Positions 4,131-14,029 of a stretch of DNA of 14,029 nt are shown piece after piece. Under the pieces are notes generated by a model. The model was not told the origin of the DNA, ran no database searches, and saw nothing but the letters and a program-made list of their open reading frames with translations. Made by a program: the position numbers and the translations under genes. Source of the stretch: Casimicrobiaceae bacterium (GTDB lineage Bacteria > Pseudomonadota > Gammaproteobacteria > Burkholderiales > Casimicrobiaceae); contig CATPAO010000115.1 in the NCBI GenBank assembly GCA_955652025.1, forward strand, positions 1 to 14,029. Direction: 5' to 3'. Position 1 is the stretch's first letter, and every line of letters begins with the position of its first letter.

Positions 4131-4999
4131 CCGGCAGCGGCGCGCTGGATCCGGTCGACGAAGATCGCCGCGGCCAGCAGGTCCGCGGAGCCGCCTGGCG
4201 ACACGCGATGCGCGACGAATTCTCGATGAATCGACAGCGCGCGCGGTACCGCGTCGCGCGAGTGGACGTCGCCCGCGCTGCGGAATTCCCGCGCGCGACG
4301 CTGGACGAGCGCCAAGCCGGCGGCGCCGGCGCGATGCAGCACGTTGGTATCGTCGACGTGCGCGAGCAGCGCGAAAAACGCCGACAGTCGCGCGAGTCGC
4401 GCATCGCAGCTCCGCACAATCGCCGCCCGGAGCGCCGGTAGCGCAACCTCGAACACCGACGGGAACGCGTAGAGCGCCTCACCGCGCGCACCGGGCGCGC
4501 CGTAACGAGCCATCGCCGTCGCGCCGTGCGATCGCGACGCCGACGCCGTGGAGGCGAGCGCGGCGCACCATTCGTTCACTAGAATGCGGCGTAATGTCCC
4601 GTCGGTCGGCGCGGCACCGATCGCATGCGCGCGCGCCGCTGCGGCGCATAGAAGGCCCAATGTGAAGATGGCGCCACGATGAGTATTGACGCCATCGGTC
4701 GCGGCGAGCATCGCGGCCTCGGCGCGGATGCCGAGTGCCTGCAATCGTGCGAACGGCGCGCGTTGCCCGCCCGCCGCGGCGATGTCGGCGAAGTAACGCG
4801 ATAGCGCGAAGAGGCTCACGACGAAGGTTGATGCGTCCATGTCGGCATGCGCGCCCGAATCGCGCAGGCTGACCAGACCTGGCTTGGGGAACAGCGCCAG
4901 CTCGGCCCATAAACTCGCGATGGCGCTTCGTGCGATGGTCGCCGCGCTCGCACTAGTCGGCTCAGGTGCGAGATCTAGCGCGCACGAGGCGGCGCTCAT
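4127..4999 (-). CDS. mdcB: Triphosphoribosyl-dephospho-CoA synthase MdcB
   Basis: A 290-residue CitG/MdcB-family protein that makes 2'-(5''-triphosphoribosyl)-3'-dephospho-CoA from ATP and dephospho-CoA, the precursor of the MdcC prosthetic group. Motifs in order are FPKPGLVS (37-44), GAHADMD (49-55), GVNTHRGAIF (103-112), HGATAMARYG (158-167) with GARGEA (170-175), and SPGGSADLLAA (267-277). I chose ATG 4999, giving MSAASCALDL. However, the frame stays open through the upstream repeat to ATG 5086, which overlaps the mdcG stop as ATGA. Starting there would add 29 repeat-encoded residues beginning MSAAGPRQGADC. No clear Shine-Dalgarno lies before 4999 apart from the GGGGG of the repeat, so the real start is uncertain. 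The gene overlaps mdcH by four bases. Confidence 0.92.
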   Translation of the reverse strand: MSAASCALDLAPEPTSASAATIARSAIASLWAELALFPKPGLVSLRDSGAHADMDASTFVVSLFALSRYFADIAAAGGQRAPFARLQALGIRAEAAMLAATDGVNTHRGAIFTLGLLCAAAARAHAIGAAPTDGTLRRILVNEWCAALASTASASRSHGATAMARYGAPGARGEALYAFPSVFEVALPALRAAIVRSCDARLARLSAFFALLAHVDDTNVLHRAGAAGLALVQRRAREFRSAGDVHSRDAVPRALSIHREFVAHRVSPGGSADLLAAAIFVDRIQRAAAG

Positions 5000-5087
5000 G
5001 GGACCCCCACGCTTGCTGCTATCGCCGCTGCGCTGCCCCCGAGAGGGGGAGCAATCCGCGCCTTGGCGCGGCCCGGCGGCGCTCATG
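4988..5087 (-). repeat. Intra-operon palindromic repeat, copy A (mdcG/mdcB junction)
   Basis: A GC-rich repeat fills the whole 83-base gap between mdcG and mdcB. Read in the operon direction it runs from ATGAGCGCCGCCGGGCCG to AAGCGTGGGGGTCCC. It contains two inverted repeats: CCCCC-GAGA-GGGGG (5036-5049) and CCGCGCC-TT-GGCGCGG (5056-5071). The 13-mer GGCGGCGCTCATG occurs on both sides (4988-5000 and 5075-5087), so both the mdcG stop and the mdcB start sit in the same duplicated sequence. The frame from ATG 5086 stays open and runs into mdcB. Confidence 0.9.
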
Positions 5088-7720: not shown

Positions 7721-7735
7721 CGAAGCGCTCCGTTC

Positions 7736-7815
7736 GCGCCGCCGGGCCGCCCCAAGGCGCGAACTGCGCCTTCTCTGGGGGCAGCGCAGCGGCGAAGCCG
7801 CAAGCGTGGGGGTCC
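7736..7815 (+). repeat. Intra-operon palindromic repeat, copy B (mdcA/mdcC gap, inverted)
   Basis: An 80-base copy of the same repeat, here in the plus orientation and so opposite to the operon. It shares GCGCCGCCGGGCCG, CCCAAGGCGCGAA, GGGGGCAGCGCAGCGGCGA and GCAAGCGTGGGGGTCC with the other copies. The C-run of the main hairpin is degraded (CCTTCTCTGGGGG). It lacks the ATGA edge and does not touch a stop or start codon. In the plus frame it reads AAGPPQGANCAFSGGSAAAK, a peptide string I associate with misannotated ends of Burkholderiales proteins. Confidence 0.88.
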
Positions 7816-7823
7816 AACATCCC

Positions 7824-9504: not shown

Positions 9505-10863
9505 TTAGAGGCCCTTGGGCGCGCCCATCACCCAATCGGGAAAGCCGTTGGCGATGCCTGGGAAGAGACAGATCAGCACGATCGCGACGAACATCAGGCC
9601 GACGAACGGCAGCACGCCCCAGATGACGTCGCGCAACGGAATATCGGGCGCGATGTTCTTGATGACGAAGATGTTGAGCCCGACCGGCGGATGGATCAAT
9701 CCCATCTCCATCACGATCGTCATCAGCACGCCGAACCAGATCAGGTCGAAGCCGGCGCCCTTAAGCGGCGGCAGGATGATCGGCGCGGTCATCAGGATGA
9801 TCGACACCGGCGGCAGGAAGAAGCCGAGGATCACGACCATGAACAGGATCGCGGCGAGCAGGAGCCATTTGGACAGCTGCATCGCGACGATGCCTTGCGC
9901 CGCCGATTGGCTGATGTGCAGGTAGCTCATCACATAGGAGAACAAGAGCGACATGCCGATGATGAACATCAGCATCGTCGATTCCTTGACCGTCTGCGCG
10001 AGAATCGGCTTGACGTCCTTCGGCCGCCACACGTGATAGACGATCGCGATCAGCAACAGCGCCAGCACGGCGCCGAGGCCGGCTGTCTCCGAAGGCGTCG
10101 CGTAACCGCCGTAGAGCGCCACCATCACGCCGATCAGCAGGATGACGAACGGCAACACGCGCGGCAGCATCTCGACCTTCTCGTGCAGCGTGTACTTATG
10201 TTGCTCCAGGTACGCGTGGTGCGTGCCTTCGCGCTCGAACGCGGCGTGCGCCGCCCGGTACTCCTTGCGGAAGCGGAACATCGCATAGAGCGAGAATAGC
10301 GCGACCAGCAGCAATCCCGGTCCGATGCCGGCCAGGAACAGACGGCCGAGCGAGACTTCGGCGGCGACCGCGTAGAGGATCATCGTGATCGATGGCGGTA
10401 GCAGGATGCCGAGCGTGCCACCCGCGGCGATGATGCCGGCTGCAAATCCAGGCGAGTATCCGCGCTTGCGCATCTCGGGAATGCCGGCACTGCCGATCGC
10501 CGAGCACGTCGCCGGGGAGGAGCCCGCCATCGCGGCGAACAGTGCGCAGGTGAATACGTTCGCGATACCGAGCCCGCCGGGAATGCGTTGCATCCAAGCG
10601 TGCATCGCGAGATAGAGGTCGCGGCCCGCAGCGGAGCGGCCGATCGCCGCGCCTTTCAAGATGAACAGCGGGATCGATAGCAGCGTGATCGACGCCATTT
10701 CCTCGTAGACGTTCTGCGTGACCGTGTCGAGCGACGCCGAGGGCATGAACAAGGCCATGAAAAGGATCGCGACGAAACCCAGCGCAAAGGCGATCGGCAT
10801 CCCCGAGAACATCACGACGAGCGTGACCACTCCAAACAGGAGACCGAGCGCGAGCACGCTCAA
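9505..10863 (-). CDS. dctM: TRAP transporter large membrane subunit DctM
   Basis: A 452-residue multi-pass membrane protein (about twelve hydrophobic segments), the ion-coupled channel subunit of a TRAP uptake system. The DctM signature AMAGSSPATCSAIGSAGIPE at 111-130, continuing to RGYSPGFAAGIIAAGGTLGI (134-153) and LLPPSITMI, is clear. A charged stretch at about 196-235 interrupts the membrane segments, as in the longer members of the family. The start is TTG 10863, since moving to the next ATG would remove much of the first membrane helix. TTGA here also overlaps the stop of a 29-codon frame inside repeat copy C. That repeat fills the whole 82-base gap to dctQ, and its GGGGG tract is the only purine-rich stretch before the start. 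Malonate as substrate is inferred from the operon. Confidence 0.92.
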   Translation of the reverse strand: MSVLALGLLFGVVTLVVMFSGMPIAFALGFVAILFMALFMPSASLDTVTQNVYEEMASITLLSIPLFILKGAAIGRSAAGRDLYLAMHAWMQRIPGGLGIANVFTCALFAAMAGSSPATCSAIGSAGIPEMRKRGYSPGFAAGIIAAGGTLGILLPPSITMILYAVAAEVSLGRLFLAGIGPGLLLVALFSLYAMFRFRKEYRAAHAAFEREGTHHAYLEQHKYTLHEKVEMLPRVLPFVILLIGVMVALYGGYATPSETAGLGAVLALLLIAIVYHVWRPKDVKPILAQTVKESTMLMFIIGMSLLFSYVMSYLHISQSAAQGIVAMQLSKWLLLAAILFMVVILGFFLPPVSIILMTAPIILPPLKGAGFDLIWFGVLMTIVMEMGLIHPPVGLNIFVIKNIAPDIPLRDVIWGVLPFVGLMFVAIVLICLFPGIANGFPDWVMGAPKGL

Positions 10864-10948
10864 GGGACCCCCACGCTTGCGGGTGTCGCCGCTGCGCTGC
10901 CCCTAAAGGGGGAGTAATTCGCGCCTTGGGACGGCCCGGCGGCGCTCA
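10864..10948 (-). repeat. Intra-operon palindromic repeat, copy C (dctQ/dctM junction)
   Basis: An 85-base copy fills the whole gap between dctQ and dctM in the same orientation as copy A. Its hairpin is CCCC-TAAA-GGGG (10900-10911). Read along the operon it begins GTGAGCGCCGCCGGGCCG, where TGA is the dctQ stop, and ends GGGGGTCCC directly before the dctM TTG. A frame of 29 codons starts at that GTG (10949) and ends at a TGA (10862-10860) overlapping the dctM start as TTGA. TGAGCG occurs on both sides. Confidence 0.9.
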
Positions 10949-11512
10949 CGACGTCCCGCTCCTCGCGGCAAAATGCGCGGCGACCTGAAGCAGCAATTGG
11001 ACGACCAGTAACGTCATCCCTGCCCCCATCAAGCCGTAGGGAATCGTGAGCGGCGGCGAAAAAGTCGACGACGTCGTCATCTTGTCGACCCATGCTTCGT
11101 GGAAGAGCGTCCACGACTTCCACGCGAAGAAGGCGCAGAACGCGAGCGTCAGAACGTCGACGACCACCATCCGGTAGCGATCGATGGCCGGCGGCAGGAT
11201 GCTGGCGACGGCCTCGATGCCGACGTGGCCGCGCTGGGCCTGCACCCACGCGCCACATAGGAACACGGCGCCCACGATGCAAAACACGGCGACCTCGTCC
11301 TGCCAATCGGTCGCCGCCCGGAATAGGTAGCGCGAGAAGACGCTGTACGTCAGCACCAGCGATGCCGCGACGAGCGCGGTCATCCCGAAGAACAGCGTCA
11401 CCCTATTGATGCCGGCCAGCATGCGCTCCAGCATTCCCAGCGCGCCGGCGTGACGTTCCTCGACGCGCTCGGGGACCCCGGGAACGTCGACGCCGTCGAT
11501 GCCGTGGCTCAT
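10946..11512 (-). CDS. dctQ: TRAP transporter small membrane subunit DctQ
   Basis: A 188-residue membrane protein with four hydrophobic segments at about 38-60, 74-92, 114-134 and 158-178, the standard layout of DctQ small subunits. VFSRYLFRAATDWQDEVAVF (58-77) is the typical motif at the end of the first helix, and QAQRGHVGIE (91-100) is the conserved loop. ATG 11512 (MSHGIDGVDV) is preferred; the frame is open upstream only across dctP. The start overlaps, as ATGA, the stop of a 14-codon frame within the short repeat remnant D. The stop TGA 10946-10948 is at the edge of repeat copy C. It pairs with DctM in the membrane and receives substrate from DctP. Confidence 0.9.
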   Translation of the reverse strand: MSHGIDGVDVPGVPERVEERHAGALGMLERMLAGINRVTLFFGMTALVAASLVLTYSVFSRYLFRAATDWQDEVAVFCIVGAVFLCGAWVQAQRGHVGIEAVASILPPAIDRYRMVVVDVLTLAFCAFFAWKSWTLFHEAWVDKMTTSSTFSPPLTIPYGLMGAGMTLLVVQLLLQVAAHFAARSGTS

Positions 11513-11552
11513 AAATGAGCCCCCACGCTTGCGGCCAACGCCGCTGCGCTCA
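11513..11552 (-). repeat. Shortened repeat, copy D (dctP/dctQ junction)
   Basis: A 40-base remnant of the same repeat. It keeps GCGCAGCGGCG and GCAAGCGTGGGGG but lacks the GCCGGGCCG half and the main hairpin. It fills the 37-base gap between dctP and dctQ. TATGAGC stands on both sides: the first copy contains the dctP stop and the second contains the dctQ start. A 14-codon frame runs from ATG 11553 to a TGA (11511-11509) overlapping the dctQ ATG. Confidence 0.75.
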
Positions 11553-12572
11553 TAGCAGCTTTTGCGCCAACGCCAGAAGTTTCGCGCAGTTCTCGTTCTT
11601 GTCGGCGTAGTCCTTCCAGACCGGCTTCGCCAGCGCCTGCCACTTGGCGAGCGTCGCGTCGTCCAGGTCCGACACCTTCGCCCCGGCCTTCGTGTAGACG
11701 CTGGCCACCGCGACGTCGTCCGCTTTGGCGCTGTCCACGGCGAATTTCTCGAGCTCGGCGCCGACCGCCATGACCGCGTCCTGCTGCGCCTTCGGCAGCT
11801 TGTCGAAGACATCCTTCGACATCATCAGCGGCTCGAACATGAACCAGTACGATTTTCCACGGCCGCTTGTCAGGAACTTCGAGACCTCTTCGAGGCGAAA
11901 GGAGATCAGGCTGGTCGACGACGTCAATGCTGAGTCCATCGCGCCGGTCTGCATCGCCGCGTAGATCTCGTTCGACGGCAGCGACAGCACCGACGAGCCG
12001 GCGTCCTTGAACATCATGTCCATTTCGCGGCTGCCGCCGCGCACCTTCATGCCCTTCGCGTCGTCGGGCGTGACGAGCGCCTTCGCACGGCTCGCGACGC
12101 CGCCCGCCTGCCAGATCCACGTCACGACGATGACGCCCTTCTCGGCCAGGAATTGCGACAGGAACTTGCCGACTTCGCCGGTCTTCCATTTGCTGCCGAT
12201 TTCATACGAGGGCACGAGCGCGGGTAGGAGCCCGATATTCGTCTCCGGAACCTCGCCGCCCGCGTAGGAGAGCGGCACGAGCGACAGGTCGAGCGCGCCG
12301 CGGCGCAGTGCGCTGAACTGTGAATTCACCTTGACGAGCGACGAGTTCGGGTAAATGTCGAACTTGAGTCCGCCGTTCGTGCGTTTTTCGACGTCCGCGG
12401 CAAACTTTCGGACGAGCCGGTCGCGGAAGTCGCCTTGGTCGATCGCCCCGCCGGGAAATTGATGCGAAATCTTGAGCGTGGTCGGATTCTGGGCGAACGC
12501 ATGCGTGCCGGCGAGCGCGAGGGGAACGGCAGCGGCGGCGCCTGCGACCAGACGGCGGCGAGTGACATTCAT
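11550..12572 (-). CDS. dctP: TRAP transporter periplasmic solute-binding protein DctP
   Basis: A 340-residue exported receptor of the DctP family. The N-terminus NVTRRRLVAGAAAAVPLALA ending AFA, with a likely cut before Gln28, carries an arginine run resembling a Tat signal. TTLKISHQFPGGA (31-43) and the later ALDLSLVPLSY block, followed by GMKVRGGSREMDMMFKDAGS, are usual for TRAP receptors. ATG 12572 has GGAGG seven bases upstream. It is the first gene of the malonate operon and lies about 74 bases downstream of the predicted start of transcription. Its place before mdcA points to malonate, in line with the MatPQM TRAP malonate transporter described in Sinorhizobium; the ligand itself cannot be read from the sequence. 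Confidence 0.92.
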   Translation of the reverse strand: MNVTRRRLVAGAAAAVPLALAGTHAFAQNPTTLKISHQFPGGAIDQGDFRDRLVRKFAADVEKRTNGGLKFDIYPNSSLVKVNSQFSALRRGALDLSLVPLSYAGGEVPETNIGLLPALVPSYEIGSKWKTGEVGKFLSQFLAEKGVIVVTWIWQAGGVASRAKALVTPDDAKGMKVRGGSREMDMMFKDAGSSVLSLPSNEIYAAMQTGAMDSALTSSTSLISFRLEEVSKFLTSGRGKSYWFMFEPLMMSKDVFDKLPKAQQDAVMAVGAELEKFAVDSAKADDVAVASVYTKAGAKVSDLDDATLAKWQALAKPVWKDYADKNENCAKLLALAQKLL

Positions 12573-13916: not shown

Positions 13917-14020
13917 ATAGTATGACTACCTGAACGCAGCTTGCTGCATGAGAGATGGGGGACGGCCCCCCGAGGACGGGTTGCAGGATCAGTTCTCAAA
14001 CCACCCCCAGCTGCTTGGGG
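13911..14020 (+). other. Hairpin-rich segment after the truncated hydrolase gene
   Basis: Four short inverted repeats follow one another: AGG..TAGT-ATG-ACTA-CCT (13911-13931), GCAGC-TT-GCTGC (13936-13947), GGGGG-ACGG-CCCCC (13957-13970), and CCCCA-GCTGCT-TGGGG (14005-14020). No hydrolase coding text continues here. The dense pairing and the sudden loss of the gene suggest the edge of an inserted element with a structured end, but no transposase or intron protein is visible before the window ends. I cannot name the element. Confidence 0.35.
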
Positions 14021-14029
14021 ATAAGAGCC

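Follow-up and report, generated by a model that had tools for sequence, protein, structure and literature searches.

A GC-rich betaproteobacterial repeat, probably BRE, located at stop/start overlaps of operon genes

Introduction

The wording of Supply et al. in 1997 on the mycobacterial MIRU repeats reportedly refers to DTGA sites. By analogy, MIRU is the closest known mechanism for the repeat analysed here, an element of about 86 bp (GC content of the model consensus, 74%), copies of which separate genes of a TRAP transporter and of the adjoining malonate decarboxylase operon in a 14,029-nucleotide stretch of DNA (the window) from a Casimicrobiaceae bacterium (contig CATPAO010000115.1, assembly GCA_955652025.1). 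As described in excerpts of the respective papers, MIRUs look mobile and insert at start codons, with an inner open reading frame (ORF) coupled at -4 spacing and a likely minimal impact on expression (PMC12548453, a review of 2025), and a single locus contains multiple units, with lengths of 77 and 53 bp (PMC4213456). The present repeat resembles this arrangement in geometry only, being located at a start/stop overlap with an ORF at -4 to the flanking gene. It differs in host phylum, given that the 73 repeat-containing stretches of named genomes all come from records of Betaproteobacteria or 'Proteobacteria', and in the possession of a strong Shine-Dalgarno (SD)-like G-run and several length classes. 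The comparison with MIRU is one of description, not of sequence; with its non-mycobacterial hosts, the repeat is treated as MIRU-like but not filed as MIRU.

In its length, GC content, tandem arrays and overlapping betaproteobacterial hosts, the repeat matches BRE, an element of 75-91 bp with high GC content that forms tandem arrays, in some copies extends a few bases into the end of an ORF, and is found in Polaromonas, Rhodoferax and other Comamonadaceae (Hot et al. 2011, PMC3110155); its function was left open in the available part of that paper. The same part describes neither stop/start overlaps nor mini-frames and gives no sequence. As judged by description, the present family is probably BRE. 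Literature searches by the BRE name retrieved no on-topic paper besides PMC3110155, and those by repeat strings returned, among the matches listed, the shortest string only. No description of BRE at stop/start overlaps was found among the matches listed in the literature, with subscription journals mostly outside the scope.

REPs carry a conserved tetranucleotide beside a hairpin, and we know of no REPs that serve as coupling frames. As excerpted, REPs with their RAYT transposases (PMC2817692) are, like the present element, short dispersed repeats with hairpins; unlike them, several genomes rich in the present repeat show no Y1 transposase match. The G/C intrastrand triplex motif of Escherichia coli (PMC4666352) similarly consists of a C-run followed by two G-runs, but is described as confined to intergenic regions, and the excerpt of that source mentions no connection with stop/start overlaps.

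Taking the evidence jointly, we consider it fairly likely that the repeat is a BRE-like non-autonomous element that rests at NTGA overlaps, supplies an SD and mostly carries bridging mini-frames. Under this explanation, a small non-autonomous repeat, probably BRE, would have spread in Betaproteobacteria, its copies becoming spacers. Many copies would have settled on 4-nt stop/start overlaps (NTGA) of co-directional genes, oriented with the operon and leaving NTGA at both ends. The upstream gene retains its TGA, now overlapped by the NTG of the repeat itself, and the downstream gene retains its NTG and gains a strong SD-like GUGGGGGU a few bases ahead. Most such spacers hold a stop-free frame with a length divisible by three, so that a ribosome re-starting upstream would stop exactly on the downstream start; at other junctions, the frame continues into the downstream gene and extends the N-terminus of its product. 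SD donation alone could suffice. This would be a likely explanation for a repeat described in 2011 without an assigned function and a second, apparently unrelated, case of repeat adaptation to stop/start overlaps within operons. Should the mini-frames be translated, the natural junctions of known phase, dozens in number and bridged, fused or out of phase, would provide a ready test of termination-reinitiation. For annotation, starts at such junctions (dctM, mdcB) are easily miscalled.

Results and discussion

Placement of the repeat at stop/start overlaps

Copy C of the repeat ends in GTGA upstream and TTGA downstream, 86 nt apart (Table 1). In the element-free orthologous locus L438, the dctQ/dctM junction is ATGAGCGTG, compared to GTGA, the repeat and TTGAGCGTG in the window. 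For copy D, L438 provides no such element-free support, since a 4-nt overlap is absent from its dctP/dctQ junction.

The home assembly of the window comprises 2.78 Mb in 400 contigs and is 67% complete. An nhmmer search yielded 82 repeat copies in 280 kb of sequence taken around pattern and BLAST matches. The pooled set comprised 408 copies in 346 arrays, from which duplicates were dropped, namely 8 arrays in the mixed set (with 11 copies) that represented loci of genomes G005, G012, G017 and G031, leaving 397 distinct copies in 338 arrays from 11 genomes and the mixed loci. The main counts given below are duplicate-free, whereas the figures for SD strength, G-run position, codon-position divergence, covariation, openness, length classes, the range of bridging-frame lengths, the bridged and fused -+ arrays and background pairs predate the removal, which altered no conclusion (before it, 44 bridged, 13 fused and 14 other junctions of 71). 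Copies from relatives were retrieved via the G-run at the repeat end, so that those without this run are under-represented. Gene prediction relied on a custom caller based on codon usage rather than on a standard program.

Placement was assessed for the 161 arrays with an intact left end and an upstream gene on the strand of the element. The upstream gene ends exactly on the left TGA of the element in 85 of these (next commonest exact offset, 5) and more than 30 nt away from it in 26. Elements with the left TGA are largely oriented with the genes (129 ++ arrays, 18 --), whereas the remaining ones, another subfamily included, show no such bias (29 ++, 30 --). At the right edge, an in-phase NTGA is present in 44 of the 68 coupled single copies and 24 of the 47 other ++ copies (68/115 jointly) as well as in 5/14 -+ copies, compared to 2/27 copies in the -- or +- context, which argues that this NTGA belongs to the downstream gene.

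The state of the junctions without the repeat was traced by querying 13 genomes of the same genus with the starts of eight downstream genes; the repeat is absent from all orthologous loci fetched. Among the 30 comparable cases, those in which both the upstream and the downstream orthologues aligned, 21 have a 4-nt overlap, as opposed to 88 of 700 background co-directional pairs without the repeat. By locus, the overlap is found in 8/12 cases for pth/ychF, 9/11 for an ABC transporter, 3/5 for formate dehydrogenase, 1/1 for dctQ/dctM and 0/1 for C361 (locus names other than dctQ/dctM are our own reading of the translations). For the queries C84, C275 and C336, no orthologue pair could be used; the single pair obtained with C361, without overlap, was counted, and L431, an ATGA overlap by eye that the script missed, was scored as a miss. 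The excess over the background indicates that the repeat targets existing overlaps and apparently spares both ends, and placement at stop/start overlaps is strongly supported by these comparisons. Furthermore, because the overlap is usually present without the repeat, the suggestion of the initial annotation that translational coupling is kept despite the insertion fits as far as geometry is concerned, the same layout recurring across junctions; what does not stand is the lack of an SD, given that the downstream starts have one supplied by the repeat. The phase of the frames is a family trait (see below).

The upstream overlap would be trivial if the TGA of the repeat itself truncated any gene that the element entered. 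Such capture of the stop codon is consistent with the presence of the TGAGC left edge in many contexts and with upstream genes that end on the left edge in +- contexts too. However, comparable upstream proteins align with their relatives, to or near their ends in the cases of pth and formate dehydrogenase, the overlap already exists in most element-free junctions, and the downstream genes begin at the other edge; this explanation, already disfavoured, appears very improbable.

Bridging frames and their phase

The two mini-frames of copies C and D proposed in the initial annotation were recovered exactly, to the base (Table 1). As each forms the end of a longer open frame (11306-10860 and 12189-11509, respectively), openness alone means little. 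Bridges were counted across the family under a strict one-hop rule, the looser multi-hop chaining having been dropped as admitting chance matches inside genes. Among the 75 ++ arrays that offer a start at the left TGA and have an upstream gene terminating on it, 42 are bridged, 13 fused and 20 other. With the downstream start at most 60 nt away, 67 junctions remain, of which 41 are bridged, by frames of 81 to 264 nt, 13 are fused in frame with the next gene and 13 are other. In the -+ context, where there is no upstream gene on that strand, 5 of the 14 arrays, a small sample, are bridged and 4 fused.

The initial annotation called for comparison of bridging frames with shuffled controls, and the observed number of bridges exceeds all of them (200 rounds each over the 67 junctions): 32.3 ± 2.2 (maximum 38) with dinucleotide-shuffled spacers of equal length, 16.1 ± 3.2 (maximum 24) with random phase, and 11.9 ± 3.2 (maximum 20) with both. 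Because the random-phase controls fall far lower than the shuffled-spacer control, the excess is mostly one of phase. Indeed, 45 of the 67 junctions are in the bridging phase, 13 in the fusion phase and 9 in the third one; for the 47 distinct genome-and-distance pairs, the respective numbers are 27, 11 and 9 (P = 6e-4). In tandem arrays, 18 of the 59 periods were measurable: 10 maintain a continuous frame, 7 are chained by overlap and 1 is frame-breaking. Length classes with at least 3 copies per genome are mostly in one phase (79, 82, 91, 97, 103), but also include 81 and 83.

A bolder, rather tentative interpretation is that BRE is an independently evolved MIRU-like cassette that targets overlaps and carries a start, an in-phase frame, an SD and a stop, its lineages being held in phase because only such copies could spread through operons without breaking translation.

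Initiation signal and the case for Shine-Dalgarno donation

Contrary to the initial annotation, under which neither dctM nor dctQ had a clear SD, anti-SD pairing of the GUGGGGGU of the repeat reaches -9.3 kcal/mol at dctM and -8.4 kcal/mol at dctQ, compared to a median value of -3.2 over 1084 other starts. The median is likewise -9.3 for the 44 bridged starts and -4.6 for 89 element-free pairs with -4 spacing, and the G-run lies 3 to 10 nt ahead of the start in 42 of the 44 bridged junctions. SD donation is the main rival explanation: the repeat would be tolerated for the strong SD that it places before the downstream start, and the frame would be a by-product of GC-rich sequence and founder length.

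Several observations favour SD donation, in addition to the strength of the pairing, and at the same time weigh against the bridging explanation. The inner length is in the main phase in 44/63 coupled, 30/42 other ++ and 41/65 remaining copies, with no clear difference, and the openness of the mini-frame is much the same at coupled junctions (0.96) and outside the ++ context (0.94). Thus, phase is a family trait rather than a property of individual junctions, and locus-by-locus selection on repeat length was not detected in the comparison of coupled with other copies. The third, frame-breaking phase persists in 9/67 junctions. A third-codon-position excess is not clear in the four length classes analysed, the third position leading narrowly in two of them; for one class (18 copies), the divergence at the three positions is 0.097, 0.129 and 0.107. 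There is therefore no sign of a selected peptide, and selection for the peptide, which is not conserved among mini-frames, was rejected. Further points against the favoured explanation are that the upstream gene ends elsewhere than on the left TGA in 76/161 arrays, so that, together with the third-phase junctions, many copies lack the full layout, that the copies are related, so that the counts are not independent, that retrieval via the G-run biases the SD figure, that copy C folds no better than shuffled sequences (z = 0.08) and that no mobiliser was found (see below).

SD donation, for its part, does not readily account for the concentration of most length classes in one phase, the exceptions at 81 and 83 notwithstanding, or for the rarity of the frame-breaking phase at junctions and among tandem periods, and leaves the retention of the upstream overlap unexplained. 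As the sole role of the repeat, it has, in our estimate, somewhat less than an even chance.

Structure, mobility and distribution of the repeat

The stem at the left end of the repeat covaries (G-C in 96, A-T in 16 and other pairs in 7 of 119 copies), so that nucleic-acid structure explains part of the conservation. A C-run, G-run, G-run layout is observed across the family, with the second G-run doubling as the SD. Both features would fit a structural or transcriptional device, such as a REP-like hairpin, an attenuator or a triplex-forming motif, whose position at junctions is incidental, the layout being like that of the G/C triplex motifs in the excerpt of PMC4666352. Such a device, however, predicts neither the exact NTGA edges, nor the operon orientation, nor the phase. 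For copies A, C and D, RNA folding reaches at most z = -1.54 relative to shuffles (0.08, -1.29 and -1.54 for the three together), and no Rfam match at the gathering score was found in the repeat in a search of the window. This alternative appears unlikely, and RNA structure was rejected as the main feature.

A RAYT mobiliser was also rejected since the presence of the Y1 transposase (PF01797) does not track the repeat: this domain was matched in G008 and G002 but also in G006, where BLAST did not detect the repeat, and was not matched in the repeat-rich G000, G014, G047 and G025, several of the genomes being incomplete. Copy number is uneven inside one genus, with 111 pattern matches in G008 and no BLAST match to the repeat in G004, G006 and G019 of the same genus (11 candidates scored each); from such widely differing copy numbers, we infer that the repeat is mobile.

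BLAST matches to the repeat were obtained in 32 of 80 relatives (own genome included), all from the same family (32/48), and none in the 32 genomes that represent other families of this order, with up to 11 candidates scored in each. An exact-pattern scan of named genomes produced the 73 stretches mentioned above, in records of Betaproteobacteria, beta proteobacterium, Burkholderiales, Comamonadaceae, Polaromonas, Ramlibacter, Aromatoleum or Proteobacteria; 38 of these were dropped as already pooled (G008, G002, G014, G047) and 35 kept. In a plasmid collection, two single matches were detected, one in a stretch without an annotated gene and the other inside a Fic-family gene.

A related subfamily lacks the ATGA left edge (loci L072 (C131), L074 (C199), L055 (C268) and L020 (C164)). 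Read on the opposite strand, the first edge of the copies at these four loci has CTAGATGA, and the other edge of the L072 copy, GGGAGGCTAGATG, would supply an SD together with a stop and a start codon.

Repeat copies and genes of the window

Table 1 Coordinates of repeat copies, mini-frames and genes in the window
Feature	Coordinates	Strand	Remarks
Repeat copy A	4997..5086	-	between mdcG and mdcB; ATGA at both ends
Repeat copy B	7735..7817	+	between mdcA and mdcC, in reverse orientation to these genes; left edge without ATGA
dctM, TRAP transporter large permease	9505..10863	-	TTG start, backed by L438; Pfam and NCBIfam matches over cut-off
Repeat copy C	10860..10949	-	between dctQ and dctM; element-free orthologue L438
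Mini-frame C	10860..10949	-	29 codons and stop (GTG ... TGA); start GTG 10949-10947 overlaps dctQ stop TGA 10948-10946 (GTGA); stop TGA 10862-10860 overlaps dctM start TTG 10863-10861 (TTGA)
SD-like run GUGGGGG of copy C	10868..10874	-	ends 4 nt before dctM TTG
dctQ, TRAP transporter small permease	10946..11512	-	Pfam match
Repeat copy D with mini-frame	11509..11553	-	between dctP and dctQ; 14 codons and stop; start ATG 11553-11551 overlaps dctP stop TGA 11552-11550; stop TGA 11511-11509 overlaps dctQ start ATG 11512-11510
dctP, TRAP transporter solute-binding protein	11550..12572	-	Pfam and NCBIfam matches over cut-off

For dctM, the gene caller chose GTG 10857 over TTG 10863; the true start is likely the latter because the L438 junction has the same codons, with ATG replacing TTG. 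A comparison of mini-frame C with Pfam gave no match. Copy D is a shortened form from which about 45 interior nucleotides, a number divisible by three, are missing, apparently between two AGCGC repeats; no second match to this form was found in the pooled loci. With one base more than copy C, copy A has a mini-frame that does not bridge but continues in frame into mdcB, and a 29-residue N-terminal extension of MdcB may thus be derived from the repeat. Rfam matched the window once, at 13957-14029, with a group II intron (RF01999) cut by the window end.

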